From a virus: DNA of 32,302 nt. The DNA lies in IMG/VR virus record IMGVR_UViG_3300023174_002331, positions 1 to 32,302 of that record. The stretch is one strand, 5' to 3'. Positions within the stretch are counted from its first letter, which is position 1, and each line of letters starts with the position of its first letter. Below are positions 123 through 32,302 of this stretch, in pieces. A program made the position numbers and the translations under genes. The notes below the pieces were generated by a model. The model had not been told where the DNA came from and did not search any database. It saw only the letters and a list, made by a program, of their open reading frames with translations.

Positions 123-283
123 GCTATACATATAAGGATATACAAGCCTTTGGTAATAGTTTGACTTGGGCTATTGATACCGCCAAATCTCAGGGTAATG
201 AGCAACAATGGAAAGAGTTGTTAATAGTATGGGATTTCTTTGAGGGATTACTAGCAGAAGGGTATTTGACTAATGAAAGTTAG
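116..283 (+). CDS. small hypothetical protein (55 aa)
   Basis: ATG at 116, preceded by the purine-rich GGGGGTGGA, which can serve as a ribosome site. The product begins MLGYTYKDIQAFGNSLTWAI and continues as an amphipathic helical protein (WKELLIVWDFFEGLLAEGYL). It overlaps both neighbours by a few bases, so translation is probably coupled. It contains one copy of the dispersed motif TACCGCC (178-184). No family recognised. Confidence 0.6.
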   Translation: MLGYTYKDIQAFGNSLTWAIDTAKSQGNEQQWKELLIVWDFFEGLLAEGYLTNES

Positions 284-479
284 AATTGCTATTGAGCAGA
301 TTATAGATCTAGATGACGCTATGTCTAATGATATAGGGTTTGAACTCTATGGTCCTGAAGATATGAGTAATAATGACAAGGTTGATTATCTAGTTACCCG
401 CTTTGCTGAGGACATTGATAGTCTTGTAAAATATGATGAGGTAAGAGACCAAATCCTAGTAGAATACATAGAGGATTAA
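273..479 (+). CDS. small acidic hypothetical protein (68 aa)
   Basis: Starts at ATG 273 inside the end of the preceding gene (11-nt overlap) and ends one base before the next ATG. The product is strongly acidic (IIDLDDAMSNDIGFELYG, RFAEDIDSLVKYDEV) with no Cys and no membrane segment. Such small acidic proteins are typical of early phage regions, but no function can be assigned. Confidence 0.65.
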   Translation: MKVRIAIEQIIDLDDAMSNDIGFELYGPEDMSNNDKVDYLVTRFAEDIDSLVKYDEVRDQILVEYIED

Positions 480-480
480 T

Positions 481-696
481 ATGTGGACTAAGTATGATTA
501 TCTATGTACTGATTGTGATGCCCTTATAGAGATTACTGCTTGTGCAGATAAGGTTCTTGATCCCGCTTGCATTTGTGGGGGATTAGGAATAGTTATCCTA
601 TTATCACAAGGAGAAGGAACAGGACCTCTCCTGGAGCCTGTGACTAAGGTCACACCAAGAGAAGTTGTAAAAATTAACACCAACCCTTATAATTAA
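481..696 (+). CDS. zinc-ribbon-like small protein (71 aa)
   Basis: Begins MWTKYDYLCTDCDALIEI and has CTDC at residues 9-12, C21, and CIC around 30-32. This resembles the FmdB/zinc-ribbon-8 layout of a short beta hairpin with paired knuckles, although the second knuckle is CxC rather than CxxC. The tail (TPREVVKINTNPYN) is polar. ATG 481 follows the previous stop by one base. Probably a metal-binding regulatory or structural peptide; the exact role is unknown. Confidence 0.65.
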   Translation: MWTKYDYLCTDCDALIEITACADKVLDPACICGGLGIVILLSQGEGTGPLLEPVTKVTPREVVKINTNPYN

Positions 697-699
697 TAT

Positions 700-852
700 A
701 TGGACATAAATACATTAAGAGAGTATATTAATATTCATATAATCTCATTAGAGCAAGACCTACAAGATAATCCTGAGTCTGAGAATGTTATAGATATAGC
801 AGGTCAGATTGAAGGGTGTAAGCATATATTAGGAGTAATCAATGAGCACTAA
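700..852 (+). CDS. small hypothetical protein (50 aa)
   Basis: ATG 700 to TAA 850-852. The product starts MDINTLREYINIHIISLEQD and looks like one long helix (coiled-coil-like, SLEQDLQDNPESENV). It follows the zinc-ribbon gene by 3 nt and overlaps the next gene by 11 nt, so it fills what would otherwise be an unexplained 145-bp gap. No family recognised. Confidence 0.6.
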   Translation: MDINTLREYINIHIISLEQDLQDNPESENVIDIAGQIEGCKHILGVINEH

Positions 853-1126
853 GTATCCCTTCATACCGCCGCATTTAGAAAAAGGATTAGAGGACATCTC
901 CATACCACTAATAGATTTAATACATGGTCATCTTAAAGTAGCCATGATTGACGCAGAGGTAGAACTTGAGTCTAAGAAAGAACAAGAAGAGTATTCAGGT
1001 GACGCTATGGATAGCATGGAGCGTACTTATGCTGAGGGCTATATGGAGGCCTTGACAGAACTGTATTGCTTGACGTATAATTTATCTATTGACCGTAAAA
1101 ATATTGAGGAGAAATACTATGCCTAA
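842..1126 (+). CDS. hypothetical protein (94 aa)
   Basis: ATG 842 lies inside the preceding gene. The product begins MSTKYPFIPPHLEKGLEDIS and is otherwise helical and acidic (AEVELESKKEQEEYSGDAM, YAEGYMEALTELYCLTYNLS). No domain recognised. The motif ATACCGCC lies at 863-870 within the coding sequence. It overlaps the next gene by 8 nt. Confidence 0.65.
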   Translation: MSTKYPFIPPHLEKGLEDISIPLIDLIHGHLKVAMIDAEVELESKKEQEEYSGDAMDSMERTYAEGYMEALTELYCLTYNLSIDRKNIEEKYYA

Positions 1127-1298
1127 GTGTTTAGACTGTGACAACACCACTAGATTTTGGTATCAAGAAATGGGAAATAAACTTGGTATATATAATGAGG
1201 ACGGCACTCTTGATGATGTAGAGGATGACTACTACGACGAGGTAGAGGGTGGCACCTGTGCTGAGTGTGACTCTACAAATATCGAGGGTAAACTATGA
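1119..1298 (+). CDS. zinc-ribbon protein (59 aa)
   Basis: The start is taken at ATG 1119, not the upstream TTG at 1089, because GAGGAG at 1105-1110 sits 8 nt before it. Two knuckles, CLDC (residues 4-7) and CAEC (about 49-52), flank a strongly acidic loop (DDVEDDYYDEVEGG), giving a two-CxxC zinc ribbon. It overlaps the next ATG by 4 nt. Likely a small nucleic-acid or protein-binding factor; the specific role is unknown. Confidence 0.7.
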   Translation: MPKCLDCDNTTRFWYQEMGNKLGIYNEDGTLDDVEDDYYDEVEGGTCAECDSTNIEGKL

Positions 1299-3188: not shown

Positions 3189-3235
3189 GGTATACTTTTA
3201 TATACCGCCGCCTTTTGGCGGCACCCCGAAGGGGT
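3189..3235. repeat. three consecutive short hairpins
   Basis: GGTATA-CTTTTA-TATACC (3189-3206), GCCGCC-TTTT-GGCGGC (3207-3222) and ACCCC-GAA-GGGGT (3223-3235) follow each other without a gap. None has a proper T-run after it, so a terminator is unlikely. ATACCGCC, the dispersed oriented motif, bridges hairpins one and two. Such folded single-strand structures can serve as primosome or initiator sites; that role is inference. Confidence 0.6.
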
Positions 3236-3478
3236 ATAAAGAAGATCACCTGATACACAAAACCTCTATAGTAAAAGACATTACGAACAAACAATTCTTT
3301 TCCCCAAATTATCCAAACATTATATACATTTTTAAAACATTTGTCTATAGTTTTTGGATATTTTTGGGGATTTTTCCTATGTTTTTATATAGGGTTTTTA
3401 CTTGACAAATAAGGATTTTATGGGTATAATCCAGCAAAAAAGGATTTGACATATAAAGGTTTTTATGATATGGGGTTT

Positions 3479-3598: not shown

Positions 3599-3670
3599 TG
3601 TGGATAACATGTGGATAACTTGTCTCATATTGTGGATAAAGGTGTGGATAATTATGGAATATGTGGATAA
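3599..3670. promoter_or_regulatory. array of five perfect DnaA boxes
   Basis: TGTGGATAA, the complement of the DnaA-box consensus TTATCCACA, occurs exactly at 3599-3607, 3610-3618, 3631-3639, 3643-3651 and 3662-3670, all in one orientation. One-mismatch boxes in the opposite orientation lie outside the array at 3309-3317 (TTATCCAAA) and 3693-3701 (TTATCCAGA). Five exact 9-mers in 72 bp cannot be chance. Binding by host DnaA is inferred. Confidence 0.9.
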
Positions 3671-3889: not shown

Positions 3890-3920
3890 GCATATACCGT
3901 CGCAAAATTGCCATATGGGG

Positions 3921-4046: not shown

Positions 4047-4672
4047 TTCCTACCCCGCATCTTTTCCCATTTGATTAAGTCATTGGGATAATCAAAATCT
4101 TCTGTCCAGTCATCAATATGGACATACCCATCTGTGTTATAAAATCCTGACTTAGCCTTGTCTAACCCATGAAGATGTAGATATAGTCTCCATGCCCCTG
4201 CTCCGCCTTGTTTCCTGTCTATTAGCGTTTCTATGGATGATTTGATCCTTTGGTTCATACCGCCAGAAAATGCTAAGGCAAAGATTTCCTTGTGATTTTT
4301 ACCTGTATAGGATGACTTATCTTTTCTGAGGAAAAACTTAAACTCATCCTCATTTGACATAATTGTTTTTACTGCCTCATCCGTAAAGTATACATCTCCA
4401 AAGACTATTACTGTTCTTTCCTCATCCCAGATAGGATGGGAAGAATAGACTTTGCCATAGTCAAAGAAATCTCCTACTAATGGGGAGTATGTTTGTCCTA
4501 TTGCATATTGTGGATCTGTGGAGACTATTACGATATTGTCCGTATACCGCTTGAATTGAGCATAGGTTCTATGTAGAAGAACCTGTCCCTCAACTTCAAC
4601 TATATGCTTTGGGACATTACGATAGTTTTCCCATCTCACACCTTCACCTGCTGCAACTATTAATACCTTCAT
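4043..4672 (-). CDS. nucleotidyltransferase (MobA/NTP-transferase-like)
   Basis: 209 aa. The N-terminus, VLIVAAGEGVRWENYRNVPK, matches the NTP_transferase Rossmann signature (AAGxGxRW...PK), in which the Gly/Arg loop and Lys bind the nucleoside triphosphate. VIVFGDVYFTDEAV at about residues 90-103 resembles the GDV/GD metal-binding strand of sugar-1-phosphate nucleotidyltransferases. It probably activates a sugar or related phosphate with CTP or UTP, which would suit the glycan island at 7-17 kb. It is read leftward from a leaderless start between rightward genes. The substrate cannot be read from sequence. Confidence 0.7.
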   Translation of the reverse strand: MKVLIVAAGEGVRWENYRNVPKHIVEVEGQVLLHRTYAQFKRYTDNIVIVSTDPQYAIGQTYSPLVGDFFDYGKVYSSHPIWDEERTVIVFGDVYFTDEAVKTIMSNEDEFKFFLRKDKSSYTGKNHKEIFALAFSGGMNQRIKSSIETLIDRKQGGAGAWRLYLHLHGLDKAKSGFYNTDGYVHIDDWTEDFDYPNDLIKWEKMRGRN

Positions 4673-4688: not shown

Positions 4689-4717
4689 TTGACATACCGC
4701 CTGATTTAGGCTATACT
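4689..4717 (+). promoter_or_regulatory. consensus promoter, leaderless
   Basis: TTGACA (4689-4694), 17-bp spacer, TATACT (4712-4717), then 6 nt to ATG 4724. The spacer contains ATACCGCC (4694-4701). Confidence 0.8.
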
Positions 4718-6203: not shown

Positions 6204-6379
6204 GTCTAGATGATATGATGTTAAGAGAAGAGATTGCCAGGGCTATTGAGGCTATACCGCTGGGTGAAGACAATGCCCAACACAATGCATTGGGTATGCG
6301 TATGCTTGCTGCAAAGGTTGCAAGGGGAGAAAACAACCACATGTCTAGCATCTTTGAACAGCAGATAGATTTTGAATAA
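6200..6379 (+). CDS. small helical protein (59 aa)
   Basis: MSLDDMMLREEIARAIEAIP then MRMLAAKVARGENN. It sits behind paralogue B where the MTHDEL-type gene sits behind paralogue A, and the start (MSLDDM.. versus MTHDEL..) and IEAI-type helix are loosely similar, but the Cys motifs are absent. It overlaps the next gene by 8 nt. Confidence 0.6.
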   Translation: MSLDDMMLREEIARAIEAIPLGEDNAQHNALGMRMLAAKVARGENNHMSSIFEQQIDFE

Positions 6380-6582: not shown

Positions 6583-6714
6583 ATGTTATTGCACATACTA
6601 TGGGGAATGTTGTTTGGTTATCTAATTGCAACATTTAATTTTGCATTGGTATTGGTTAATAAAGGATACCGCTCAGTTAGCGAGATTCCAGATAAGGAGT
6701 TAGATAATGGATGA
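6583..6714 (+). CDS. single-pass small membrane protein (43 aa)
   Basis: MLLHILWGMLFGYLIATFNF is a hydrophobic segment reaching to about residue 25, followed by NKGYRSVSEIPDKELDNG. One transmembrane helix. TACCGCT (6667-6673) lies in the coding sequence. Overlaps the next gene by 8 nt. Confidence 0.6.
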   Translation: MLLHILWGMLFGYLIATFNFALVLVNKGYRSVSEIPDKELDNG

Positions 6715-8862: not shown

Positions 8863-9630
8863 TTGAAAGATATTACGCCTACCCCTGAAACAATTAATAA
8901 ATTAGATGGGTTTGGGCCACTCTATATAATTAATTTAAAGCGCCGTACTGATAGGTATGAACGCATGATGAATCTTATAAACAATAACAATATAACTAAC
9001 TATACTTTTGTTGAAGCAGTAGATGCTACAGAAAACATTGATCATTTAATTCACAATATTGAACAAAAACATAGGGCTATGGCACAAATGCCAGAGATTG
9101 CAACAACAATTTCTCATATAAAAGCAATAGAATATTGGCTTAATACATCTAATAGTGAATATGCTATATTTGCAGAAGATGATCTTTCTGATGAAACCCT
9201 TCAATACTGGGGCTGGACATGGAAAGAGTTTATATCTTCAGTAGACTTTGATTACGATGTTCTACAATTATGCCAGACGCAGTTTACTAAAATAGACTAT
9301 AAGATTCATAAAAGAATGAGGAATGACTACAGCGCAGGGCTATATATTTTAAAACGTGAACATGCCAAGGGCATCCTAGATAGGATGATTTATAAGGGTA
9401 AGTATAAGGTGAATGACCATAGAACAAAGATTTTAGCAGACCATACAGTTATTTATGGTAATACAGATAAGGCTTATTCTTGTGGGCTTTTTACCTATGA
9501 TACCGACACAAATTCAGATGTAAATCCAAGTGGTGCAAATCTTCACAAAAGGTCTAGGGAACTAGTCCTTAAGTTCTGGAAAGAAAATAAAATATCTTTA
9601 AAGGATTTTATAGGAAACCATAAAAAGTGA
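8863..9630 (+). CDS. glycosyltransferase family 25-like
   Basis: TTG start at 8863 with GGGGGTAGG 6 nt upstream. 255 aa. LYIINLKRRTDRYERMM (20-36) is the N-terminal signature of GT25 (LPS-biosynthesis galactosyltransferase type), followed by FVEAVDA. IFAEDDLSDE near 105-112 gives the acidic metal-binding motif. HIKAIEYW and the later DHTVIYG match the family order. It transfers a sugar from a nucleotide donor to a glycan or protein; donor and acceptor are not evident. Confidence 0.8.
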   Translation: MKDITPTPETINKLDGFGPLYIINLKRRTDRYERMMNLINNNNITNYTFVEAVDATENIDHLIHNIEQKHRAMAQMPEIATTISHIKAIEYWLNTSNSEYAIFAEDDLSDETLQYWGWTWKEFISSVDFDYDVLQLCQTQFTKIDYKIHKRMRNDYSAGLYILKREHAKGILDRMIYKGKYKVNDHRTKILADHTVIYGNTDKAYSCGLFTYDTDTNSDVNPSGANLHKRSRELVLKFWKENKISLKDFIGNHKK

Positions 9631-9725
9631 TACAATTATATCCTCAATCTTTCCCAACATATCTGCATCACCTGCAGTATAAATATAGGTGACGACCTGA
9701 GTATGTCGCTACATAAACTGCTCAC

Positions 9726-9754
9726 TTGACTTATTATGATGAGTATAGTACAAT
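9726..9754 (+). promoter_or_regulatory. promoter before the second glycosyltransferase and tRNA block
   Basis: TTGACT (9726-9731), 17-bp spacer, TACAAT (9749-9754). Expected start near 9761, then AAAAGGGGTGG before ATG 9782. The 95 bp before it hold small hairpins (CACCT/AGGTG around 9667-9693) without a T-run. Confidence 0.8.
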
Positions 9755-9781: not shown

Positions 9782-10549
9782 ATGCCACATAGCGTTAAAG
9801 AAACAATTACAATTGGCTGGTGTGATGGTGGTACCGTAGAAGGACGATTTACCAGCGGTATTGCTAATACAATTATTGAAGCAGCAAAACAAAAGATCAA
9901 TATTGATAATACTATACGTGTAAATGGTAATCAGATTGCACGACAAAGACAATCTTTGTTTGATTATTGGGCAGACTTAGCAACAAGCGATTGGCTTTTG
10001 TGGGTAGACTCTGACATTGTAATTGATTACAATATTGTAAAAATGTTATGGGATGTAGCGGATAAGAAAACAAAACCAATAGTAACTGGAACATATTTTG
10101 TTTCTAGTGAAAACGAACAAACACTCATGCAGCCACTCCCTTCTTTGTACATGGAAACAGGAGATGAATTTCAAACACATGTTGTTCACCCTCTTCCAGA
10201 AAACAAAGTTATACCAGTAGACATTGCTGGATTTGGCCTTATGCTAATGCATAGATCTATTGTTGATCCAGTAAGAAAGGCTGCTGAAGGGTATTCCGTT
10301 TTTGGAGAAAAACAAAACCCTGGGGCTAAGTTTGTTAGTGAAGATGTTGCATTCTGTCGCTATGTTAAAAAGGCTGGCATTCAACTACACGCTCATACTG
10401 GAGCAGTTGTTCCACATATGAAAAAGTTTTCATTTGATAAGAATTATTATAATATTTATTGGAGCAGTATTGCTGATGGCAAGATTAGAAAACATAATCC
10501 TGGATTAGTTGATAAAGATCCAGTAAAAGAAAAAGATGGTGTGTCTTAA
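9782..10549 (+). CDS. glycosyltransferase family 2-like (GT-A fold)
   Basis: 255 aa. WLLWVDSDIVIDYNIVKMLW contains the DSD triad (76-78) of GT-A enzymes, preceded by RQRQSLFDYWADLATSDW. VDIAGFGLMLMHRSIV and VSEDVAFCRYVKKAG match the acceptor-site and ED motifs of GT2. The N-terminus (TIGWCDGGTVEGRF) is phage-type. Good AGGGGTGG ribosome site. It lies just before the tRNA genes in the same transcript. Substrate unknown. Confidence 0.8.
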   Translation: MPHSVKETITIGWCDGGTVEGRFTSGIANTIIEAAKQKINIDNTIRVNGNQIARQRQSLFDYWADLATSDWLLWVDSDIVIDYNIVKMLWDVADKKTKPIVTGTYFVSSENEQTLMQPLPSLYMETGDEFQTHVVHPLPENKVIPVDIAGFGLMLMHRSIVDPVRKAAEGYSVFGEKQNPGAKFVSEDVAFCRYVKKAGIQLHAHTGAVVPHMKKFSFDKNYYNIYWSSIADGKIRKHNPGLVDKDPVKEKDGVS

Positions 10550-10557
10550 TGACACAG

Positions 10558-11233: not shown

Positions 11234-12193
11234 TTGGCAAACATAGTTTTCTTGGGTAATTTTGAGGTAGAGTATAGTAGTGAAAATCATCACGCTAAAT
11301 CTTTAGAGTCTCTTGGCCATACCGTCGTTAAATTGCAAGAGCGTGTAGCAATGACAGAAGTTATTTTGCGTCATGCGCTTAATAGTGATCTGTTTATTTG
11401 GGTACACACACATGGGTGGAAGACAACTGGAAAGATTACGATGGACTCTGTTTTGGCCAGATTGAACAAGGCTGGGGTGCCAACAATGACCTATCATCTT
11501 GATTTGTGGTTTGGATTAGATAGACAAACGGATCTAAGCAAGGACAACTTTTATAAAACAATTGGACATTTTTTCACGGTAGATAAATTGATGGCTGATT
11601 GGTTTAATGAAAATACTCAGGTGAAGGGACACTTCATTCCTGCTGGAGTATACGATAAAGAGTGTTACATACATGAAGACTACACTAAAGAATCTTTTGA
11701 GAATGATATTATCTTTGTTGGAAGCAAGAGATACCATCATGAATATCCATATAGACCTCAATTAATTGAATACTTAAAGAAAAAATACGGTAAAAGATTT
11801 CTTCATGTTGGTGGAGATGGCGATACTGGAACTATTCGTGGTCAGGCATTAAATAAGATGTATGCAAAAAGTAAGATAGCAATTGGAGATAGTTTAAATA
11901 TTGGCTTTAACTATCCATACTATACAAGTGATAGATTGTTTGAGAGTACTGGTCGTGGTGGCTTTACTATCTACCCTCGCATCAAGGGTCTTGAAGAATA
12001 CTTTGAAGATAGTAAAGAAATTGTTTTTTATGAACATGGAAACTTTGAAGATCTGTCAAATAAAATAGATAAGTATTTAGCAGATGATGAAGAGCGTGAA
12101 AAGATTCGTATGGCTGGACACGAAAGAACAAAAACAGAGCATACTTATTTAAATAGATGGACAGCAATAATGAATGAGTTAGGTATAAAATGA
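11234..12193 (+). CDS. CgeB-like glycosyltransferase (GT-B, Glyco_trans_1_2)
   Basis: 319 aa, TTG start at 11234 behind AAAGGGG. The N-terminal half (IVFLGNFEVEYSSENHHAKS; TYHLDLWFGLDRQTD) and the C-terminal half with DRLFESTGRGGFTIYPRIKG, then VFYEHGNFEDLSNKI and RIRM-type AGHERTKTEHTY, match the CgeB/DUF3880 plus Glyco_trans_1_2 order. This suggests a GT-B enzyme transferring from a nucleotide sugar. TATAAT at 11206-11211, right after tRNA-Arg, may be a local -10. Overlaps the next gene by 4 nt. Confidence 0.78.
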   Translation: MANIVFLGNFEVEYSSENHHAKSLESLGHTVVKLQERVAMTEVILRHALNSDLFIWVHTHGWKTTGKITMDSVLARLNKAGVPTMTYHLDLWFGLDRQTDLSKDNFYKTIGHFFTVDKLMADWFNENTQVKGHFIPAGVYDKECYIHEDYTKESFENDIIFVGSKRYHHEYPYRPQLIEYLKKKYGKRFLHVGGDGDTGTIRGQALNKMYAKSKIAIGDSLNIGFNYPYYTSDRLFESTGRGGFTIYPRIKGLEEYFEDSKEIVFYEHGNFEDLSNKIDKYLADDEEREKIRMAGHERTKTEHTYLNRWTAIMNELGIK

Positions 12194-13119
12194 AAAGCAT
12201 AGCAATTACTGGCGCAACTGGGCTACTGGGTTCACACCTATCCAACTATTATTTATCTTTAGGGTGGGATGTATTTGTTTTATTAAAAGATGAGCACAGC
12301 AGAGCAGAGTTGTCGGATAAGGTTAATAAGGTATATGGAAGCATTAACAACAAAACAGATATTGATTTCTTTATAGAAAAATCCAGACCAGATTACTTTA
12401 TCCATCTTGCAGCACAAACTCAGGCGTATGACTCAATTAAGTATCCATATAATACTTTTTATACAAACCTAGTTGGTACACTAAATGTGCTTGAATCATT
12501 AAGAGAGTATAAAAATTGTAAGTCTATCATCGTTGCATCTAGTGATAAAGCCTACGGTGAATTGGTAAATGATGAATATTTTGAAGATCACATTCTTAAT
12601 GGTATATATCCATATGATGCATCTAAAACTATTACAGACATAATGTGTAATTCATATAGAAACACATACAATATGCCAGTAGTAACTACCCGTGCTTGCA
12701 ACATATATGGAACTGGAGATAACAATATACAAAGATTAGTTCCTGGAGTTGTAAAGGCTTTTAAGGATGGGGCAATTTTTACTATCAGAAATGGTGGAAG
12801 AGATATTAGAGAATATATTAATGTTCAAGATGTTGTTTCAGCATACGATAAGATTTTGTCTTACGGGGAAACAGTTAATAACATACCGTCGTTTAATATT
12901 TCTTCTGGAGAAAGATATTCTACTCTTGAGGTATTTAATCTTATACAGCACTCTATTGGAGAAAAGGTTAATCATGAAATTATTGAGAGCGATGGCTTTG
13001 AAATTAAGAAACAGTTTATGAACTCATCTTTGTTGCAAGAAAAAACTGGGTGGATGCCACAGCATAATATGAAAGATAGTATGAAGGACATAGTTGCTTT
13101 CTATGTGGAAAATAAATGA
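12190..13119 (+). CDS. extended SDR sugar-nucleotide dehydratase/epimerase
   Basis: 309 aa. IAITGATGLLGSHL has the NAD-binding GxxGxxG at 8-14. ASSDKAYGE (about 116-124) supplies the catalytic Ser and DK motif, and YPYDASK gives YxxxK at 142-146. RACNIYGTGDNNIQRLVPG and GGRDIREYINVQDVVSAYDK resemble CDP-glucose 4,6-dehydratase and GDP-mannose 4,6-dehydratase relatives; the SDKAYG and GDNN...RLVPG strings fit the CDP-glucose type best. With the CTP transferase upstream, it may make a CDP-deoxysugar; this is inference. Confidence 0.85.
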   Translation: MKSIAITGATGLLGSHLSNYYLSLGWDVFVLLKDEHSRAELSDKVNKVYGSINNKTDIDFFIEKSRPDYFIHLAAQTQAYDSIKYPYNTFYTNLVGTLNVLESLREYKNCKSIIVASSDKAYGELVNDEYFEDHILNGIYPYDASKTITDIMCNSYRNTYNMPVVTTRACNIYGTGDNNIQRLVPGVVKAFKDGAIFTIRNGGRDIREYINVQDVVSAYDKILSYGETVNNIPSFNISSGERYSTLEVFNLIQHSIGEKVNHEIIESDGFEIKKQFMNSSLLQEKTGWMPQHNMKDSMKDIVAFYVENK

Positions 13120-13625
13120 ATATAAATTTTGGTTGTGGAAGTATTCAGCCTTCTGATTGGATTAATATAGATCTTGATCCAGAGTTTAATACCGAGCATA
13201 AAAACTTAAACTCAATCCCAGATAACTCTTGTGACATAATTGTTTGTCATGCAATAATTTGTTGTGTTAAATATCATGATATCGAAAAGGTATTGTCAGA
13301 ATTTTATAGAGTTTTAAAACCAAATGGAGTTGTAAGAATTAGCCTTCCAGATATAATTTCTGGATTTGAAGCATATAAAAACAATAACATTAATTTCTTT
13401 CCTAACTCTGAAGATGATTTAGATAAACGCTTCTCTGCATGGCTAACATGGTACTCACAGTCAGCATCCTTATTAACAGATAAAGCATTACAATATAAAC
13501 TAAAAGACTCTGGATTTAACTCTGTATCAAAAACAGAATTTAAACAAACAGCATATTCAAATGAAAAGATTTATGAACTTGATACAAGAGAGCACGAGTT
13601 TTACTTTGTGGAGGCAATAAAATGA
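13116..13625 (+). CDS. class I SAM-dependent methyltransferase (Methyltransf_11-like)
   Basis: 169 aa. INFGCGSIQPSDWINIDLDP is motif I of the methyltransferase fold, although the GCG is followed by SIQP instead of the usual GxG. SIPDNSCDIIVCHAI is motif II/III, and VLSEFYRVLKPNGVVRISLP is the hallmark post-motif strand. It is short, with no clear acceptor domain. Probable target is a sugar intermediate or glycan in this island. ATGA overlap at both ends. Confidence 0.8.
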   Translation: MNINFGCGSIQPSDWINIDLDPEFNTEHKNLNSIPDNSCDIIVCHAIICCVKYHDIEKVLSEFYRVLKPNGVVRISLPDIISGFEAYKNNNINFFPNSEDDLDKRFSAWLTWYSQSASLLTDKALQYKLKDSGFNSVSKTEFKQTAYSNEKIYELDTREHEFYFVEAIK

Positions 13626-14329
13626 CAGAAATGATTAAAACAACTCTTAACGGAGAGTTTGAGATGGTGCTTCCAAAACATCGTGCAGAGAGACCAGAGT
13701 GGTATTCTGAGTCTGGTTGGGAAAAGTTACGACTTAAGTCAATGCATAACCATATTGGTAGTGGGGATGTAGTTTATTATGTTGGTGCAGAAGAAGGAGA
13801 GTTCCCCGCACTTTGTCAAATGTGGGGGGCAGAATTAGTTTTGTTTGAACCAAACCCTAAAGTGTGGTCACATCTTCCATTAACTTGGACATCTAATAAT
13901 CTAGAACTTCCAATGGTCTGTATTCCTGGATTTGCATCAGATAAAATAAATAACCTTTTACGCATTTATTATAATGAATGGCCACCAGAGGTTAATGATG
14001 TTATTGAAGCAGCACACGGATTTAAAGAATTATACCTTGAAGGTGATTCATATGGTCAGATTACTATAGATTCATGTGTATATGATCATGGTATTAAACC
14101 ACCTACCGCCATTTCATTGGACGTAGAGGGCAGCGAATGGAGAGTTCTAGGAGGGGCTGAGAAAGTACTTAGAGAGCACAAACCAAAGATTTGGCTATCT
14201 GGACACCCAGAGTTTATGCTACAGCAATGGGATGAATCTTTATATAATCTTAGACAGTGGATAAAGGGGTTTGGATATAAAGAAACCTTGCTTGACTACC
14301 AACATGAGGTTCATTTATTTTATGAGTAG
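13622..14329 (+). CDS. FkbM-type methyltransferase
   Basis: 235 aa. DVVYYVGAEEGEFPALC is motif I, AELVLFEPNPKVW motif II, and SLDVEGSEWRVLGGAEKVLR (DVEGSEW at 167-173) is the FkbM/Methyltransf_21 signature. FkbM enzymes O-methylate hydroxyls, often on sugars of surface glycans. It overlaps both neighbours, so it is translated as part of the sugar operon. Confidence 0.85.
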   Translation: MTEMIKTTLNGEFEMVLPKHRAERPEWYSESGWEKLRLKSMHNHIGSGDVVYYVGAEEGEFPALCQMWGAELVLFEPNPKVWSHLPLTWTSNNLELPMVCIPGFASDKINNLLRIYYNEWPPEVNDVIEAAHGFKELYLEGDSYGQITIDSCVYDHGIKPPTAISLDVEGSEWRVLGGAEKVLREHKPKIWLSGHPEFMLQQWDESLYNLRQWIKGFGYKETLLDYQHEVHLFYE

Positions 14330-18183: not shown

Positions 18184-18395
18184 TCCTTCACTCCATAATT
18201 ATTACTTGGATTTTCAGGATGATCTATCGGTGTTGGAGCGGTACACATAGTTCCACAATCATTACACTGTATATCTAAATGGTACATTCCTACCATGTAT
18301 GTTGCTATATCAAATGACACTAACGCTCTAAACAATGTACCGCCACAACTTGGACACTCACAAGTTGGGATACCTCTAGCGTCTATCATCGGCAT
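18180..18395 (-). CDS. zinc-ribbon small protein (71 aa)
   Basis: CECPSCGGTLFRALV at about residues 12-26 and IQCNDCGTMC near 42-51 give two CxxC knuckles, a zinc ribbon. The N-terminal MPMIDARGIP resembles small phage zinc proteins. Sits between overlapping genes. Role unknown. Confidence 0.7.
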   Translation of the reverse strand: MPMIDARGIPTCECPSCGGTLFRALVSFDIATYMVGMYHLDIQCNDCGTMCTAPTPIDHPENPSNNYGVKE

Positions 18396-18802: not shown

Positions 18803-19735
18803 CTAATCCTTTTCTCTCAATACTATTGTATCACTAGCCATGCTATACATTTTTTTAAAGTTTAAGCCTGTTATTTTTTCATAATCTTCTATTGGTCTTT
18901 GCTGTCCTACACCATAGATACCGTTTTCAAGACCACATAGAACTCTTTTTTGTTTTTCTTTTGATAGAACTTCTAGTTCTTTCCATGAGATTTCTCTAAG
19001 GTTCCTGTCTTTCCAAACCTTGCTATAACCTTCACGAGTATAAAAATGATAAACAATTGTTACACATGGAGAATAGATGTCCCATCCCCTAGTCCAAGCC
19101 CTTATTGCAAAACATAGTTCCTCACCAAAAAAACTAATCTCTGGATCATATGGAACCTCTTCTATGATTTGTCCAGTAGAAAATATAAATCCTGCCAGAA
19201 TTGTTGTAGATTCTTCTGGAAGATTTTTATTAGACAGTTTGACTCTTTCAGCAGTCCACTCTCCACGCTTCGTCAGCATTGGCTTTTGTTTTGTAGGGTA
19301 TGGAGGTTGTGTCTTTGAGTTTTTAATAATACTTATTGTGTTATTTTGTTCTACATAAAATGGTGGTGGGAAATATGAAAGAATTATTTTATTATTATTA
19401 GATAATTCTTGAGACTTTTTATATTGTTGAATACAAAGCAAGTCCCAATTCTTTTCAAATACTGTGTGAGAATCAATCTGTAAGAAGTAATCTTGTTTAG
19501 AATACATTGATACAATTTGTGCTCTTGCATATCCAGCACCTCTTGCCATTTTAGGATGTATTGTTTTTAATGTAAGGTTTGGAACCCAAGAAAGGTCTGG
19601 GGCAAACTTTTCAAACTCTTGCAAGAATACACCAAAGTGTAAGTCTTGTGGATTTGCTGCATTATCTAGTGCAGAATGAATAGTTCTTTCCAGTTCTGGA
19701 TCTCTATAACTAGCAATAGATATAAAGATTGTCAC
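18803..19735 (-). CDS. GlcNAc-transferase-like glycosyltransferase (PF11397 type)
   Basis: 310 aa, GTG start at 19735 overlapping the previous stop (GTGA). TIFISIASYRDPELERTIHS at the N-terminus and HFGVFLQEF followed by ARGAGYARAQIVSMY are signatures of the Skp1-type GlcNAc transferase family. QIDSHTVFEKNW supplies the metal-binding DSH, and FFGEELCFAIRAWTRGW (about 224-240) the acceptor EE motif. It is the only large sugar-transfer gene in the leftward arm, so this activity is expressed apart from the island. Likely acts on a surface or virion protein; not certain. Confidence 0.8.
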   Translation of the reverse strand: MTIFISIASYRDPELERTIHSALDNAANPQDLHFGVFLQEFEKFAPDLSWVPNLTLKTIHPKMARGAGYARAQIVSMYSKQDYFLQIDSHTVFEKNWDLLCIQQYKKSQELSNNNKIILSYFPPPFYVEQNNTISIIKNSKTQPPYPTKQKPMLTKRGEWTAERVKLSNKNLPEESTTILAGFIFSTGQIIEEVPYDPEISFFGEELCFAIRAWTRGWDIYSPCVTIVYHFYTREGYSKVWKDRNLREISWKELEVLSKEKQKRVLCGLENGIYGVGQQRPIEDYEKITGLNFKKMYSMASDTIVLREKD

Positions 19736-19965: not shown

Positions 19966-20174
19966 TACTCTTCTCTTTTCCAATGGAGATATGATTTAAT
20001 GTATACCGCTGCATATGCTAATGCAGAAAATATGAATCCATACTGATCAGTTATCAATGCATATGCTATCCATAGGACTTCATTAAATAGTAGTACAAAC
20101 CATCCCCAAATGGTCTTACGACCAACAAAGAAGATTCCAGTTACACCTATTACCGCTAATATCCACGACCACAT
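19965..20174 (-). CDS. small polytopic membrane protein (69 aa)
   Basis: MWSWILAVIGVTGIFFVGRK, then WGWFVLLFNEVLWIAYALIT, then FIFSALAYAAVYIKSYLHW: three membrane helices with a basic C-terminal tail. Resembles small actinophage membrane proteins with PnuC-like texture; a real transport role is doubtful at this size. Contains TACCGCT on the + strand at 20004 and 20151. Confidence 0.68.
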   Translation of the reverse strand: MWSWILAVIGVTGIFFVGRKTIWGWFVLLFNEVLWIAYALITDQYGFIFSALAYAAVYIKSYLHWKREE

Positions 20175-20175: not shown

Positions 20176-20460
20176 TTACTGCTCCATTGTTAATGATTGC
20201 CAAGTCAAAGACCATTCTTGCTTTGATCTATGATTACTAAACTCTCTTGAGATTTCTCCACCTTCTAGGTAAATACCGCCCCAAACTCCCCATTCTTTAC
20301 CAGACACACCAACTGCAAAGCATCTCTTTGCTACTGGACATGTTCTACAAAGAGAATCAACAAACTCTCTGCTCTCTGGATTTTCTTCATATTGATCAAA
20401 AAATATATTTGTGTCAGAGCCTAAACACTGTGCATCATCTTTCCATAGATGTTGTTTCAT
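20176..20460 (-). CDS. WhiB-family transcriptional regulator
   Basis: 94 aa from ATG 20460, picked because AGGGGC precedes it; the longer frame to 20496 overlaps the upstream gene. Four Cys at 12, 38, 41 and 47 (Q-C, then CRTCPVAKRC) bind a [4Fe-4S] cluster, and WGVWGG at 57-62 is the invariant beta-turn. WhiB proteins occur only in Actinobacteria and their phages, and act with sigma A to redirect transcription. The phage copy could remodel host gene expression or block host WhiB. The C-terminus is short and lacks a strong AT-hook. Confidence 0.95.
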   Translation of the reverse strand: MKQHLWKDDAQCLGSDTNIFFDQYEENPESREFVDSLCRTCPVAKRCFAVGVSGKEWGVWGGIYLEGGEISREFSNHRSKQEWSLTWQSLTMEQ

Positions 20461-24316: not shown

Positions 24317-24547
24317 TTATACCGCTAACTTTTCTCGTTCATCAACAATAGTTATTGCAAAAGACATCATCTTTTCGTATCCTTTAGGATTATCCATAAT
24401 TTTATTATAATGATGTCCACAAAACATTAAGTCTCCAGATAAGCCTGTTACTTTTACCAATGCTTCTGCTGCACATGAATCACATCGATCTGTTGCTTTT
24501 AAAATCCAGTCTTTTGCTACAATCTCTTCTGTAATCATTGTCTTCAT
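24317..24547 (-). CDS. DUF7455-like zinc protein (76 aa)
   Basis: DRCDSCAAEALVKVTGLSGD then LMFCGHHYNKIM. The CxxC plus CGHHY pattern is the DUF7455 signature, common in actinobacteria and their phages, with probable zinc binding. Host homologues are often adjacent to sigma-factor genes, so a transcription-linked role is plausible; not proven. Confidence 0.8.
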   Translation of the reverse strand: MKTMITEEIVAKDWILKATDRCDSCAAEALVKVTGLSGDLMFCGHHYNKIMDNPKGYEKMMSFAITIVDEREKLAV

Positions 24548-25827: not shown

Positions 25828-26247
25828 CTACTTGATTTTGATTACTTTAGGCTTCTTGTCTTCAGGAACAAGACGGTTAATGTCAATGTTTAACATACCG
25901 TCTTTTAGTTCTGCACCAGTGATTTCCATGTATTCTCCAAGTGCAAATGTTCTAGTAAACTTACGACCAGCAATTCCCTTATGAAGAATTTCTGCATCAT
26001 AAACTTCTGCAATCTCTCCAGTGATCACAAGTGTTTGATTATCAACTGAAACATTGATATCATCATTTGAAAATCCTGCAACAGCCAAAGATAACTTATA
26101 TGTATCTTCATCCAACTTAAGCAAATCATAAGGTGGATAGGATGTTTGTCTTGATGCTAACTGAACATTACTTAGACGCTCCAATTCACGATTGAAGCCA
26201 ATAAAAAAGGGATCCTTGAAAAGGTCCCATGCAAACGAACTTACCAT
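25828..26247 (-). CDS. Hsp20/alpha-crystallin small heat-shock protein
   Basis: 139 aa. N-terminal MVSSFAWDLFKDPFFIGFNR precedes the alpha-crystallin domain: YKLSLAVAGFSNDDINVSVD, TLVITGEIAEVYDAEILHKG, FTRTFALGEYMEITGAELKD and GMLNIDINRLVPE. C-terminal KVIKIK carries the IxI-like oligomer anchor. Holds unfolding proteins, here perhaps virion proteins or host enzymes. Its leader has TGTACC/GGTACA inverted repeats (26277-26299), but no ribosome-site pairing that would make a clear RNA thermometer. Confidence 0.92.
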   Translation of the reverse strand: MVSSFAWDLFKDPFFIGFNRELERLSNVQLASRQTSYPPYDLLKLDEDTYKLSLAVAGFSNDDINVSVDNQTLVITGEIAEVYDAEILHKGIAGRKFTRTFALGEYMEITGAELKDGMLNIDINRLVPEDKKPKVIKIK

Positions 26248-26926: not shown

Positions 26927-27108
26927 TATTGCTCCTTTATCTTAAATACTACTTGACATGGGTCGCCCCCTGCTTCCCATTCTTCTTGCTCTTCTTCGCT
27001 CATATATGGATCTCCATCATGAGTGTTACAAAACGGTTCAGTAATCCATCCTCGTTCAATACCGTTGTTTAACCAGATATCAAACTCATCATAATCTTCT
27101 TCTAGCAT
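26926..27108 (-). CDS. conserved actinophage small acidic protein (60 aa)
   Basis: DIWLNNGIERGWITEPFCNT then MSEEEQEEWEAGGDPCQVVF. The pattern W-x-x-x-G-I-x-x-G-W...C-x-T-H-x-G...EEWEAGGDPC is a recurring actinophage family without known function. One-base overlap with the secreted protein gene. Confidence 0.72.
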   Translation of the reverse strand: MLEEDYDEFDIWLNNGIERGWITEPFCNTHDGDPYMSEEEQEEWEAGGDPCQVVFKIKEQ

Positions 27109-27714: not shown

Positions 27715-27999
27715 TTAATTAGCCTTTTTGTCTACTGTTTTAAACGCATCATTTATTTCTGATAATGTGAGTTTTCCATCGTCCAAAAAAGCCCTAGCCA
27801 ACCGTTCAATAACTGTGGCTACTCCTAATAGTCCTGCTAAGAATACCGCCTGCATAGTATCAATTCCTACCACGGCTCCTGCTCCCAAGACTGATAGTCC
27901 TGATGCTGCAAACACTGCCACGATTCTCATTAATACATTTGTTATTGCTTTTTGTGGATGCTCTTTTTTAGGAGCCTCTACTGTTTTTTTAGTTGCCAT
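27715..27999 (-). CDS. holin-like membrane protein (94 aa)
   Basis: Basic N-terminus (MATKKTVEAPKKEHPQKAIT), membrane segments LMRIVAVFAASGLSVLGAGA and MQAVFLAGLLGVATVI, then a charged tail (LTLSEINDAFKTVDKKAN). Two-helix, size and charge pattern fit a class II holin. It sits just upstream of the Ntn-hydrolase promoter. Holin role is inferred. Confidence 0.68.
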   Translation of the reverse strand: MATKKTVEAPKKEHPQKAITNVLMRIVAVFAASGLSVLGAGAVVGIDTMQAVFLAGLLGVATVIERLARAFLDDGKLTLSEINDAFKTVDKKAN

Positions 28000-28226: not shown

Positions 28227-30346
28227 TTGTTCCTCCTTATCATTGCCCCTGCAATTTGTGATGCAATTACAACTGGGACAATTACTTCTTGTGCTTTTTC
28301 TCTCTGATCATCCGTCATATCCATACCTAACTCAGAGAAATTAGATAGTAACTCTGCTACATCCACTTCAAATATTGCTGCAAGTGGATCTTCAAGAAAT
28401 GCTTCTGTTTGTACTTCTGTTGTTGCATCTGCTAATGTAAATGGCATTGGGGCATCTCCAGCATCCCCTGCTCTATCTGCAAACTCAACAAATGCTGCTG
28501 CTACTGCAGGGTCTGACTTCATTGCCTCTGCTATTTTTGCTACTTCTGCTGAAGAAATACCAAGTCCTGATGCAAGTTCTTTCTTTGCATCCTGAGTTAA
28601 AGACTTAAGTGTCTGACTAACTGCTGCTGTTTGTTCTGGTGAAAGTTTAACTAATTTATTATCCTTGCTTGTAAGGTTTGCAATAACTCCAGACAAATCT
28701 TCTGATGTTCCAGAACCTTTCTGTGGGATAAGGGCTGCAAGAGCAGCATCCTTGATAACTGGGTCCACATTCTCTGCTGGTTTAAAGTCTGGTCTTGGAA
28801 GCGGCTTAGGCTCTGGAGAAGGGGCTACAGGAGGCTCTGGAGAGGGTTCTGGCTTTGGTTCAGGTCTTGGCTCAGGCTTAGGTTCTGGTTTTGGCTCTGG
28901 CTTTGGCTCAATAGGTGGTGTTGGCTTTGGTCCTGGATTTCCAATAGATCCCTCTGGATCTCCAGTGGCAGTTGGATTAGTTGGTTTTGGTTCTGGCTTG
29001 TCTGTTGGTGGTGCAGAAGGCTTAGGTTTTTCTGGCTCAATGGTTGGTTTTGGTTCTGGAGAAGGTTCTGGCTTAGGTTGGTTTGCTGCAGCGTTTGCTG
29101 CTGCTTGTGCTATTGCTCTTTGGATTTCTCTTTGAGATTGTTCATCATAATAATTCCAACTATCTTGAATTGCATTATTAACATCATTCATAGCATTATT
29201 AAAACTACTTATAGCATTATTCTTTTCAGACAAAGCATCTTCTGTATCATTTATTGCATTGTCATGCTCAGATGTTTTATTAGTTAGTGTTTGATTATAG
29301 CCATTTAATGTTGCAACCTCTTGATTGTAAACATTTAGTTTGTCATTGTATTCTTGCTGTGCTTCATTCTTTGCAGTTAAGGCTGCTTGATATTCAGAAG
29401 TCTGTGTTGCAGTTGGTCCAGATCCAGAAGAAAATGTATTTAAATTACAACTAAAGTCTTGTCCCCATACCCTTGGATTACCAGCATAATCACAGCCTGC
29501 TCCAGTCCAGCCTCCAGGAATAGCCCAGCCAAGATGATATGATCCTGGCCCTCCCCCGTTATACCACCAAATTTCTACATCAAAAACTTTATCATTTGTT
29601 ACATCATATATCGGAGAGTATGCACTCCAAGTTGTTCCTTGCTCCCGCCAATTATTTATGGCCAATTCTCCATCAATATACATTCTAAAACCATCATCTG
29701 TATATCCTGCAAATTTTGTTTGTGTAAACCATGATGGAACTGTTATCTGTCCAGTAAACTTAACAATAAAATTACTATACCGATTTCCGCAAACTGGTAG
29801 TTGCATATGGTTTGAATTCCATGTACCACTACATAATAATTCATCTGTGGCTGCCTGACCATTTTGTCTTACTAGACTATAAACATCATATCTTAAGCCA
29901 ATACCGCCAGCATTATTTAATGCTTGCTGAGCATTTGATAGATTTATCTTGGCTACCTCAAGGGCATCATAGGCATCATTCTTGTGGTCAAGGGCTAACT
30001 CTACCGTTACTGTATGCCCATCTACATTTGACTGTGCAAGTATTTTTGCATCTAAGGCTAGTTCTTCTGCCTCTATTGCATCTTCATAGTCTTTAATTGC
30101 TTTATCTCTGACATCCCGCAGATTTTTAGCATACATGAACTTGTTTTCTGCTATATCAATCATATTTATTAGACCATCTTTATAGTCTAATTTATCCACT
30201 GCGCTATTTAGGTTTTCAATTTGTTTTGCTGCAAGCATTAATGGGTCATCAGAGTTAGCCTGTGTTGGTGATATAAATAACCATCCAAAAGCAAGAAATA
30301 GTGCTATAAACATGCGAAATAATTTGTTCAAGTAGGGGCCTTTCAT
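28223..30346 (-). CDS. 707-aa secreted PA14-domain protein with Pro-rich repeats
   Basis: Signal peptide about 1-30 (LFRMFIALFLAFGWLFISP, cut near TQA). Helical region 35-140 with DAYDALEVAK-type heptads. PA14 carbohydrate-binding domain about 180-280: FTGQITVPSWFTQTKFAGYT, DDGFRMYIDGELAINNWREQ, DVEIWWYNGGGPGSYHLGWA. A second coiled coil 300-420, then about 90 residues of EPKP/EPKPEP repeats (425-516), and a hydrophobic C-terminus (VIVPVVIASQIAGAMIRRNK). Build fits a cell-surface adhesin or tail-fibre-like receptor protein. ATG 30346 stands 7 nt after a TATAAT. Confidence 0.8.
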   Translation of the reverse strand: MKGPYLNKLFRMFIALFLAFGWLFISPTQANSDDPLMLAAKQIENLNSAVDKLDYKDGLINMIDIAENKFMYAKNLRDVRDKAIKDYEDAIEAEELALDAKILAQSNVDGHTVTVELALDHKNDAYDALEVAKINLSNAQQALNNAGGIGLRYDVYSLVRQNGQAATDELLCSGTWNSNHMQLPVCGNRYSNFIVKFTGQITVPSWFTQTKFAGYTDDGFRMYIDGELAINNWREQGTTWSAYSPIYDVTNDKVFDVEIWWYNGGGPGSYHLGWAIPGGWTGAGCDYAGNPRVWGQDFSCNLNTFSSGSGPTATQTSEYQAALTAKNEAQQEYNDKLNVYNQEVATLNGYNQTLTNKTSEHDNAINDTEDALSEKNNAISSFNNAMNDVNNAIQDSWNYYDEQSQREIQRAIAQAAANAAANQPKPEPSPEPKPTIEPEKPKPSAPPTDKPEPKPTNPTATGDPEGSIGNPGPKPTPPIEPKPEPKPEPKPEPRPEPKPEPSPEPPVAPSPEPKPLPRPDFKPAENVDPVIKDAALAALIPQKGSGTSEDLSGVIANLTSKDNKLVKLSPEQTAAVSQTLKSLTQDAKKELASGLGISSAEVAKIAEAMKSDPAVAAAFVEFADRAGDAGDAPMPFTLADATTEVQTEAFLEDPLAAIFEVDVAELLSNFSELGMDMTDDQREKAQEVIVPVVIASQIAGAMIRRNK

Positions 30347-30353: not shown

Positions 30354-30359
30354 ATTATA
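30354..30359 (-). promoter_or_regulatory. -10 box for the PA14 protein gene
   Basis: TATAAT on the - strand, 7 nt before ATG 30346: leaderless or nearly so. Shares TTGATATAATAAAGAT with the HNH promoter. The -35 is weak. Confidence 0.5.
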
Positions 30360-30391
30360 TCAAACTATTCAGTTAGACATAAAAGTATAAC

Positions 30392-30419
30392 AAAAAAGGG
30401 AGCCAAATTAATGGCTCCC
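30392..30419 (-). terminator. intrinsic terminator of the Ala-rich protein gene
   Basis: On the - strand GGGAGCC, loop of 8 nt, GGCTCCC, then TTTTTT (complement of A 30392-30397). It stands 17 nt after the stop at 30436 and isolates it from the PA14 gene. Confidence 0.9.
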
Positions 30420-30435
30420 TCAGTTGTTGGACTAA

Positions 30436-31542
30436 TTACTTAATTAGAGTAACCTTTGCCTTTGGATTCTTTGCATTCCACTTCTTTGCAAGTGCATTAA
30501 AAGCATCCTTAATTGACTTAAGTGCAGCAGCATTATCTGCTGTTAACTTAGCGATAGTTGCATCCTTAGCAAGGATAACTGCATCTGAAGCAGCCTTTGC
30601 ATCAGCAAGTGCCTTAGCAGAAGCAGCCTTCTCTGCTGCAAGAGCAGCAGTGTGTTCTGCGGTTGCCTTAACAAGTGCAGCGTCTGCAATTGCCTTAGCA
30701 GCAAGTGCTGCATCTGTAGCAGCCTTAGCAGCAGCAAGTTCTGATACTAGATCACGAACTGTAATTTCTGCAAACGGTGCAAGCACACGAGCAGGAAGTC
30801 CAACTACATCTGCAGTTGTTGCATCTCCAGCATTTGTTGGGCTGAATGTAATTAGTGAACGTGATCCAGTTGCTGGAAGTGTTGCAGTAAACTTTGCAAC
30901 TCCAAAATCTGAAAGTGTAGCACCAGTTGATACTGTTGCTGTTTCTAGTGTTGCTGTTGCAGCAAACACTGTTGCAGTAATTGACTTACCTGATACCTTA
31001 TTACCAAATGTATCTGTTGCAGTCACTGAGATATCTTGCTTTGTACCAGCAGCACCAGCAGCAGGAGCAGTTACTGTTAGATTATTAATCTTTCCAGCAG
31101 TTCCCTGTACGTAGTAGGTAAGTGTTGTTCCACCGTTGTTGATTACAACTGTACCAATTGCTGTGGTCTTTGTGTAGACATAAAATGTTGCTGTTGTTCC
31201 TGTACCAGTTGCAACTGTCAAAGATGATGATCCTGATGTTGCGCCTACTGGTGCAGCAGTTGTGTGTAGAGCAGATACGATTGTTGCATTTGTTGCTGAA
31301 ACAGAAACGCTTGTTCCCATATCAACTGTTGCAACAAACTTTAGTGCATCTACAGAATCAACTGAGTTGTCTGCAGGTACTGGCAGTGAAGCAGGTGTTG
31401 TAATTGAATTTGCTGTAGTGTTTGCTACAGAATCCAAAGATACAGCAACTGTCATTACCGCAGCACTTGCAGGTGTTGCTACCATTGTGCCCAAAGTCAT
31501 GGCTGCAACCAGACCTAGAGCAATCTTCTTAAATGAATTCAT
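30436..31542 (-). CDS. secreted Ala/Thr-rich surface protein (368 aa)
   Basis: Signal peptide MNSFKKIALGLVAAMTLGTM, cut near ATPASA, typical of actinobacterial secreted proteins. Residues 30-150 are Thr/Ser/Ala-rich beta; 155-255 (INNLTVTAPAAGAAGTKQDI; ATDTFGNKVSGKSITATVF) form a Big/Ig-like repeat. Residues 265-345 are an Ala-Lys coiled coil (AAAKAATDAALAAKAIADAA) and the C-terminus, LAKKWNAKNPKAKVTLIK, is basic. It is much richer in Ala and Thr than its neighbours, suggesting recent capture of a host S-layer-like gene. AAGGAG before ATG. Confidence 0.82.
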   Translation of the reverse strand: MNSFKKIALGLVAAMTLGTMVATPASAAVMTVAVSLDSVANTTANSITTPASLPVPADNSVDSVDALKFVATVDMGTSVSVSATNATIVSALHTTAAPVGATSGSSSLTVATGTGTTATFYVYTKTTAIGTVVINNGGTTLTYYVQGTAGKINNLTVTAPAAGAAGTKQDISVTATDTFGNKVSGKSITATVFAATATLETATVSTGATLSDFGVAKFTATLPATGSRSLITFSPTNAGDATTADVVGLPARVLAPFAEITVRDLVSELAAAKAATDAALAAKAIADAALVKATAEHTAALAAEKAASAKALADAKAASDAVILAKDATIAKLTADNAAALKSIKDAFNALAKKWNAKNPKAKVTLIK

Positions 31543-31558
31543 TTTTCTCCTTGTTTGA

Positions 31559-32302
31559 TTAAATTAGTTTGTATTCATCTAGGAAATCTCTGATATCTTC
31601 AGGAATTTCCCTAGTTTCTAATTCTACCATATCCCTTTGCTTTTGTGCAAGTCGGGATGCAGTAGACCAGGTATGGATCTCAATTTCTAGATTAGAGTCC
31701 TTGCTGGTGTGAGATATTGCTCCAAATACCGCCCCACAAACGGCATCTGCCAAGTCCTTAGATTTCTTGCGTGGATGGTCAACCTTATTATTTCTCATAA
31801 TCTTAAGTTCACTCATCTCATCAAGCAATAAAGGAATCATTGGCATAGCAACTCTTTCTTCATATATCATCATTGCTAAATCTTCATAATGTTTTTTAGC
31901 AACAGAAACAGTATCAGTTCTTATACCGACAGCCTTTAATTCATTTTGAATATCAAAAGACTGCCACCTATCAAACGATACCATTCCAATATTAAATCCT
32001 TCTCTGCGAAGGTTTTGTATCCATAGTTTTACCTCAGATAGGTTTACTGGTCCTTCTACCTTTGGTTCCCACCAAGCAACGGCATCAACAATTACAATTG
32101 GTGCTACCTGCTCATAATCTTTAATTACCTGAATGCTAACCCACTTATCAACATGGGCAATCGCAACTGCACACTTATCGTGTTTTTGTGCAAGGTCAGC
32201 ATGAACATAATAAACTTTATCTGGATCTGGTTTAAAGCCAGGATCAAATCTTCTATGACTATCCACAGGATTTCTTAAGGTCATACATCTTTCTAACTTA
32301 TC
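31559..32302 (-). CDS. terL: terminase large subunit, C-terminal nuclease part (partial)
   Basis: About 247 residues to the window edge. The frame stays open through the internal ATG at 32284, so the N-terminal ATPase lies outside. YYVHADLAQKHDKCAVAI gives the first nuclease Asp, IGMVSFDRWQSFDIQ the second, and KKSKDLADAVCGAVFGAISH the third: an RNase H-like terminase nuclease. EPKVEGPVNLSEVKLWIQNL lies between. It cuts concatemers and packs DNA into the head. Read leftward, 16 nt before the Ala-rich protein gene. Confidence 0.9.
   Translation of the reverse strand, partial: DKLERCMTLRNPVDSHRRFDPGFKPDPDKVYYVHADLAQKHDKCAVAIAHVDKWVSIQVIKDYEQVAPIVIVDAVAWWEPKVEGPVNLSEVKLWIQNLRREGFNIGMVSFDRWQSFDIQNELKAVGIRTDTVSVAKKHYEDLAMMIYEERVAMPMIPLLLDEMSELKIMRNNKVDHPRKKSKDLADAVCGAVFGAISHTSKDSNLEIEIHTWSTASRLAQKQRDMVELETREIPEDIRDFLDEYKLI

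Follow-up and report, generated by a model that had tools for sequence, protein, structure and literature searches.

Why should a short word stand on one strand of a phage genome, whichever way the genes run? This question is raised by the virus record IMGVR_UViG_3300023174_002331, a 32-kb fragment of 32,302 bases (the window, by which we mean the whole of this stretch), in which TACCGCC, mostly in the longer form ATACCGCC, is dispersed from end to end. The phage clade to which the window belongs keeps an oriented word of 7 to 8 bp, (A)TACCGC(C), on the strand opposite the large terminase gene, terL; on the terL sense strand, the word reads 5'-GGCGGTAT-3'. An earlier note on this DNA had listed 12 plus-strand positions of TACCGCC, no copy of GGCGGTA, and a strand ratio of 35/7 for the shorter TACCG, all of which proved exact on recount. 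Counts separated by a slash are given here as forward/reverse, forward being the plus strand of the window: TACCGCC occurs 12/0, ATACCGCC 9/0, and ACCGCC 12/0.

The best core was ATACCG (25/1; binomial p = 8e-7), which ranked first among all 6-mers for both strand bias and over-representation; corrected for the 1702 6-mers listed with a one-strand excess, its p value was ~0.0014. TACCGCC alone (p = 0.0005) fails correction across all 7-mers; therefore, the case rests on the 6-mer core and on replication in relatives. An order-2 Markov model predicted 3.2 copies of ATACCG, and in 2000 synonymous-codon shuffles, with the proteins, codon usage, and noncoding copies held fixed, the maxima were 17 for ATACCG and 7 for TACCGCC, against 25 and 12 observed. 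The claim that the word is commoner than base composition or codon use predicts is thereby upheld. No description of the word was met in the literature, which was judged mostly from titles and listings.

Relatives were gathered into two sets that exclude the window: a close set of 46 loci (436,704 unmasked bases) and a family set of 457 loci (2,896,176 unmasked bases), of which 307, each with 1000 or more unmasked bases, were used. Masking took out near-identical DNA only, and homologous sites below ~90% identity were counted repeatedly; z values are therefore too generous. ATACCG was found 143/41 in the close set (rightward genes, 29/13; leftward genes, 91/23; intergenic DNA, 23/5) and TACCGCC 55/14 (13/5, 37/7, and 5/2, respectively), with the longer forms ATACCGCC, ATACCGTC, and ATACCGCA at 33/6, 17/2, and 19/3.

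In the family set, observed counts of each word were compared with codon-shuffled counts, with coding sense matched. This codon-controlled test replaces an uncorrected orientation screen, in which the differing composition of rightward and leftward genes pushed many words up the ranking. TACCGCC reached z 5.9 and rank 3 of 16,384 7-mers, behind two overlapping forms of ATTACGA. Forward copies in rightward genes numbered 52 (8.2 expected), compared with 30 reverse copies in leftward genes (14.0 expected), and forward copies in leftward genes numbered 153 (47.1 expected), compared with 33 reverse copies in rightward genes (20.8 expected); the forward word thus exceeds its codon prediction by ~3-fold in leftward genes to ~6-fold in rightward genes. 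Between genes the count was 24/9, and family-wide it was 230/72. The 8-mer ATACCGCC had a ratio of 3.5, an intergenic count of 15/2, and rank 6 of 65,536. Locus by locus (n = 307), forward copies of TACCGCC outnumbered reverse copies in 105, the opposite was true in 26, and 176 were tied. The expectation that related phages would share the orientation is borne out by both sets; the polarity in relatives is ~3:1, weaker than in the window, which lies at the strong end.

Within this family, the strength of the polarity varies. Of 60 loci ranked by their identity to the window, the top 11 carried ATACCG at 3.0 to 7.5 copies per 10 kb with a ratio of 4:1 or more, and the remainder mostly carried 0 to 3 per 10 kb, some at parity and a few at 4 to 6. 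The idea that orientation would be constant over whole genomes stood in 6 of 15 long records of relatives, which have no reverse TACCGCC (G027, 11/0 across 118 kb; G045, 11/0; G031, 7/0 across 99 kb; G016, 4/0; G032, 3/0; G021, 2/0), and did not stand in the other nine, with 1 to 3 reverse copies each (for example, G038, 15/3; G029, 11/3; G037, 17/3; G054, 8/3). Constant orientation is a tendency across relatives, not a rule.

Does gene direction account for the polarity? With hand-picked open reading frames (ORFs), the window copies of TACCGCC fall in rightward genes three times, in leftward genes six times, and between genes three times; with an automatic ORF call, the figures are five, five, and two. 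Reverse copies number zero under both ORF sets, and the claim that the bias holds in genes of either direction survives the change of annotation. Fifteen relatives gave 14 forward copies (2.1 expected) and 9 reverse copies (5.5 expected) in rightward genes, 109 forward (24.5 expected) and 10 reverse (5.2 expected) copies in leftward genes, and 7/1 between genes. These counts predate the masking of shared DNA and are not independent: equal site spacings reveal DNA common to G010, G037, and G038, and likewise to G033 and G045. Coding direction is rejected as the cause because the polarity is the same between genes and in genes of either direction, and the synonymous shuffles likewise exclude coding. 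A reading-frame effect is ruled out by the presence of TACCGCC in several frames on both gene strands, and a general GC skew is ruled out by a skew that flips with gene direction (0.137 and -0.144 in the window); the intergenic skew is 0.123 in the window and -0.06 in close relatives. The copies in the window are as follows.

177..184, plus strand: ATACCGCC, between called genes
863..870, plus strand: ATACCGCC, in rightward gene 842-1126
3202..3209, plus strand: ATACCGCC, intergenic with the hand-picked genes, within a short rightward ORF of the automatic set; part of a predicted hairpin
4257..4264, plus strand: ATACCGCC, in leftward gene 4043-4672
4694..4701, plus strand: ATACCGCC, intergenic; a promoter-like TTGACA box (by eye) ends on its first A
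14104..14110, plus strand: TACCGCC, in rightward gene 13622-14329
16938..16944, plus strand: TACCGCC, in rightward glycosyltransferase-like gene 16508-17542
18338..18344, plus strand: TACCGCC, in leftward ORF 18180-18395
20273..20280, plus strand: ATACCGCC, in leftward whiB gene 20176-20496
27843..27850, plus strand: ATACCGCC, in leftward ORF 27715-27999; the automatic call is an overlapping rightward ORF
29901..29908, plus strand: ATACCGCC, in leftward gene 28223-30346
31726..31733, plus strand: ATACCGCC, in leftward terL gene 31559-32284
3894..3899, plus strand: ATACCG core (as ATACCGTC)
4544..4549, plus strand: ATACCG core
6254..6259, plus strand: ATACCG core
6666..6671, plus strand: ATACCG core
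9500..9505, plus strand: ATACCG core
11319..11324, plus strand: ATACCG core (as ATACCGTC)
12883..12888, plus strand: ATACCG core (as ATACCGTC)
13189..13194, plus strand: ATACCG core
14619..14624, plus strand: ATACCG core
18918..18923, plus strand: ATACCG core
20003..20008, plus strand: ATACCG core
24319..24324, plus strand: ATACCG core
25895..25900, plus strand: ATACCG core (as ATACCGTC)
27059..27064, plus strand: ATACCG core
29777..29782, plus strand: ATACCG core
31923..31928, plus strand: ATACCG core
9856..9861, minus strand: ATACCG, the sole copy on the opposite strand

The word is specific in sequence. Forward TACCGCC stood at 3.7 times its codon expectation and reverse TACCGCC at 1.8 times; its 21 single-base variants ranged from 0.0 to 2.7 times expectation in the forward orientation, and substitutions at each of the seven positions lowered the excess. 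The two highest variants, TACCGCT and TCCCGCC (both 2.7 forward), were nearly equal in reverse (2.3 and 2.2), and TACCGCA behaved as a weak form (1.9 forward, 1.1 reverse). TACCGCC was strengthened by A or C before it and by A, C, or G after it. No flank conservation was found around 230 sites. The ATACCG in terL was kept in 66 of 156 aligned stretches, and the sites at 27843 and 29901 were kept in 0 of 59 and 0 of 99, respectively (the stretches overlap). With unconserved flanks and with sites that come and go among relatives, it is a recurring word, and a dispersed repeat family is ruled out. Among newly arisen copies of ATACCG in close relatives, 13 were forward and 4 reverse, which is weakly favorable.

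What could read such a word? Oriented words such as Chi and KOPS (FtsK-orienting polar sequences) are known from bacterial chromosomes, and Chi sites are regulators of RecBCD and AddAB. We propose tentatively, and with somewhat less than even confidence, that the word is a Chi-like directional recognition site for a DNA-tracking enzyme, read by a phage-encoded reader. An enzyme tracking along the phage DNA would read the word in one direction; in a Chi-like reading, the short G-rich word would be sensed by a helicase-nuclease or a recombinase loader, and our best guess is that the phage itself would encode it. By its length, exactness, one-strand G-richness, density, and independence of transcription, the word would appear most like Chi. 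It shares with Chi a short G-rich sequence (GGCGGTAT on the other strand), a preferred orientation regardless of gene direction, dispersal in genes of either direction, and an excess beyond codon use. Unlike Chi, of which host enrichment is one defining feature, it has no excess over a reversed control in candidate hosts and is carried by a phage clade, with a minority of reverse copies. Machinery of the phage family could read direction, because the families listed for G027 include a DnaB-like helicase, a primase, a single-stranded DNA-binding protein (SSB), and a RecA/UvsX-like recombinase; that scan covered 69 of the 94 longer ORFs, listing the best 25 of 40 families from Pfam and the best 25 of 97 from PHROG. 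It is a more far-reaching and rather doubtful proposition that this clade of large actinophages has a genome-polarity code of its own, ATACCGC(C), that is viral rather than of the host and evolves with the clade. An oriented word kept by a virus family independently of its host would point to a viral enzyme that responds to the direction of DNA in replication, recombination, or packaging, and comparison of the related metagenome contigs, which number in the hundreds, would allow a search for the reader.

Several observations weigh against this proposal. No reader was identified among the families listed for G027, from which the absence of a nuclease or translocase is not inferable. Family-wide, ATACCG stands at 489/277, the raw count of TACCGCC in rightward genes of the 2.9-Mb set is only 52/33, and reverse copies themselves exceed expectation (63 versus 35). 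Many relatives show little or no polarity, with ATACCG at 0/0 or 2/2 in several loci, and the reverse copies in 9 of the 15 long records point the same way. Newly arisen TACCGCC in close relatives was just 5 forward versus 4 reverse, and 7 of 180 anagrams of ATACCG showed an equal or larger gain excess, which places ATACCG eighth. Finally, an order-2 model gave a 2.5-fold excess of GGCGGTA in Planktophila sp. BS7 (75 versus 30.6 expected), which leaves room for a host reader.

The anagram control also favors a reading in which the polarity has no function and is a by-product of codon-pair context, a protein composition that differs between rightward and leftward genes, and the purging of restriction sites, with the window as an extreme draw. 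The window, at 25/1, lies far above the 143/41 of its close relatives, residual bias is seen in other words too (standard deviation of z, 1.25 over 7-mers), and the purge of CCGG and CGCG removes neighbors such as TACCGGC and TACCGCG. The excess, which is present between genes and in genes running either way, argues against such a by-product, as does the position of TACCGCC, still 4.7 standard deviations out of the word distribution after coding-sense matching. We consider this explanation rather unlikely.

Replication suggests another candidate. An origin-like cluster at 3599-3670 packs five perfect DnaA boxes, all in the same orientation, into 72 bases, with three copies of TACCGCC to its left. 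The earlier note held that the word does not flip at this origin; for ATACCG, this was sustained in relatives with a DnaA-box cluster (12/5 to the left, 26/11 to the right), and for TACCGCC, the copies were too few to tell, both in nonredundant bases (3/5 left, 6/3 right) and in four records (6/2 left, 19/3 right). If copies of the word were start sites for the phage primase on the lagging-strand template, unidirectional or rolling-circle replication would give a single orientation throughout. The lack of a flip for ATACCG, the count of 11/0 for TACCGCC across 118 kb in G027, and the primase and DnaB-like helicase encoded there are all consistent with priming. Known primase signals, however, are 3 to 5 nucleotides long, whereas substitutions at each of seven positions cut the excess here, and copies one to several kilobases apart are sparse for such a purpose; priming is an unlikely explanation in our estimate.

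A reader in the host was also considered. Twelve genomes, picked by title from 47 that matched a WhiB-type pattern, served as candidate hosts (several named Nanopelagicales, one Aquiluna, and the rest actinobacteria without assignment). Across them, GGCGGTAT occurred 480 times versus 430 for its reversed control, and GGCGGTA 1927 times versus 2031, with single genomes at 0.6 to 1.5 times control. In 400 kb of Planktophila sp. BS7, a maximal-order model gave GGCGGTA a z of 1.1, and the coding-cancelled orientation ratio was 1.37 (z 1.1; rank 2021 of 16,384; one lineage); one 190-kb part had 24/3 in rightward genes. These figures lend no support to a host Chi or KOPS, because the 12 actinobacterial genomes show no excess of the word over the reversed control, and the maximal-order model agrees; the order-2 excess in BS7 speaks the other way. 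The suggestion that the host chromosome shares the word thus found no backing, there being no clear orientation in BS7 either after coding was cancelled.

A mark of packaging or injection polarity, or a KOPS-like signal guiding a DNA translocase, would likewise be oriented and dispersed, and the 6 of 15 long records without reverse TACCGCC fit this. Like KOPS and the SpoIIIE recognition sequences (SRS), words of FtsK and SpoIIIE, respectively, it is an oriented word of ~8 bp that ignores gene direction. It differs from them in that ATACCG has the same orientation on both sides of the origin-like locus, no translocase is identified among the families listed for G027, and there is no host excess over control, the last of which speaks against a guide for host FtsK. 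Such a mark or guide seems improbable to us. The earlier comparison with orienting signals of the Chi, KOPS, packaging, or injection type holds in part: the word is oriented, independent of gene direction, and common to relatives, but its sharing with the host is not supported, and readings of the Chi-like, packaging, injection, or priming kind are not separable here.

Could host defense have left sites in one orientation? Phage T7 keeps its EcoP15I (type III restriction) sites in a single orientation, and the window looks the same, with all 12 copies of a nonpalindromic word on one strand in a family under restriction pressure. Unlike the T7 sites, the forward word here is enriched and the reverse is not purged family-wide. 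Fifteen overlapping records contained 20 reverse copies of TACCGCC (11.2 expected), and the window contained 0 (0.7 expected), so that the window alone cannot show purging. A screen of 16 records for one-orientation 5- and 6-mers yielded three weak, unrelated words; it needed an expected reverse count of at least 10 and has little or no power for this word, and none in the window. Because the reverse orientation is not depleted across the family (63 versus 35 expected), type III evasion is disfavored and highly improbable, and the proposal of a site protected against host defense is likewise not supported.

The stoperators of cluster A mycobacteriophages are another set of dispersed, asymmetric sites in actinophages. 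They are mainly intergenic and follow transcription, whereas the word is mostly inside genes in the window and ignores their direction.

Palindromes of four bases are purged in the window (observed/expected: AGCT, 0/93; CCGG, 1/13; CGCG, 1/7), and the set differs among relatives: AGCT is at 0/333 in G027, G038 also lacks GGCC (0/79), G016 lacks TCGA (0/71), and G026 retains AGCT (512/633). This purging may mirror host restriction systems.

The window encodes the C-terminal part of the large terminase and a PA14-domain protein. A block at 8863-17542 holds several glycosyltransferase-like genes and an epimerase gene, with four tRNAs at 10558-11205 inside it; further products are WhiB, SSB, endonuclease VII, thioredoxin, a nuclease-like protein, HSP20, and a CHAP-domain protein. 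The best named relatives of the terminase among the matches listed are Streptomyces phages (~45% identity), and since a WhiB is also present, the host is probably an actinobacterium, judging from gene content. The first 25,000 bases had no DNA-level match to any phage record in the annotated collection; public metagenomes contain at least 600 matching stretches, and the related contigs, numbering hundreds, are up to 118 kb long. The habitat of these contigs may be freshwater. PMC10202952 concerns smaller WhiB-bearing phages of "Candidatus Nanopelagicales", which are distinct from the window's family.

Adjoining terL, the gene at 30436-31542 encodes a protein with a secreted, S-layer-like appearance (by eye). 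It is strongly kept in the family (76 to 88% identity to the window copy in 18 others aligned); named phages gave no match, and a genome search gave 23 pattern matches, none confirmed as a relative.

The ATACCGCC at 3202 lies in a predicted stem-loop at 3190-3250 (-22.3 kcal/mol; z -3.6), and in relatives L389, L396, and L397, ATACCGCC lies in a stem-loop element common to the three (z -2.0 to -2.8). An Rfam search up to an E value of 1 gave no match for the stem-loops of the window, L389, and L396.

Other words are oriented or enriched in this family. CCCCTGC was considered as a second oriented word (7/0 in the window and seen in close relatives) and was rejected at rank 4951 in the family test. 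ATTACGA is a second oriented word in the window (10/2; 3039, 3086, 3280, 3506, 4527, 4616, 6382, 9251, 11435, and 20495) and stands at 172/7 between genes in the family; its intergenic copies are preceded by a weakly conserved A-rich stretch and followed, ~18 to 24 bases on, by a T-run and CCC. It may be an early promoter or regulatory element. In G026 and G016, a different string is enriched around AGAACGG and GGGAAGA; GGGAAGA was observed 40 times versus 5.1 expected and 20 times versus 2.1 expected, respectively.

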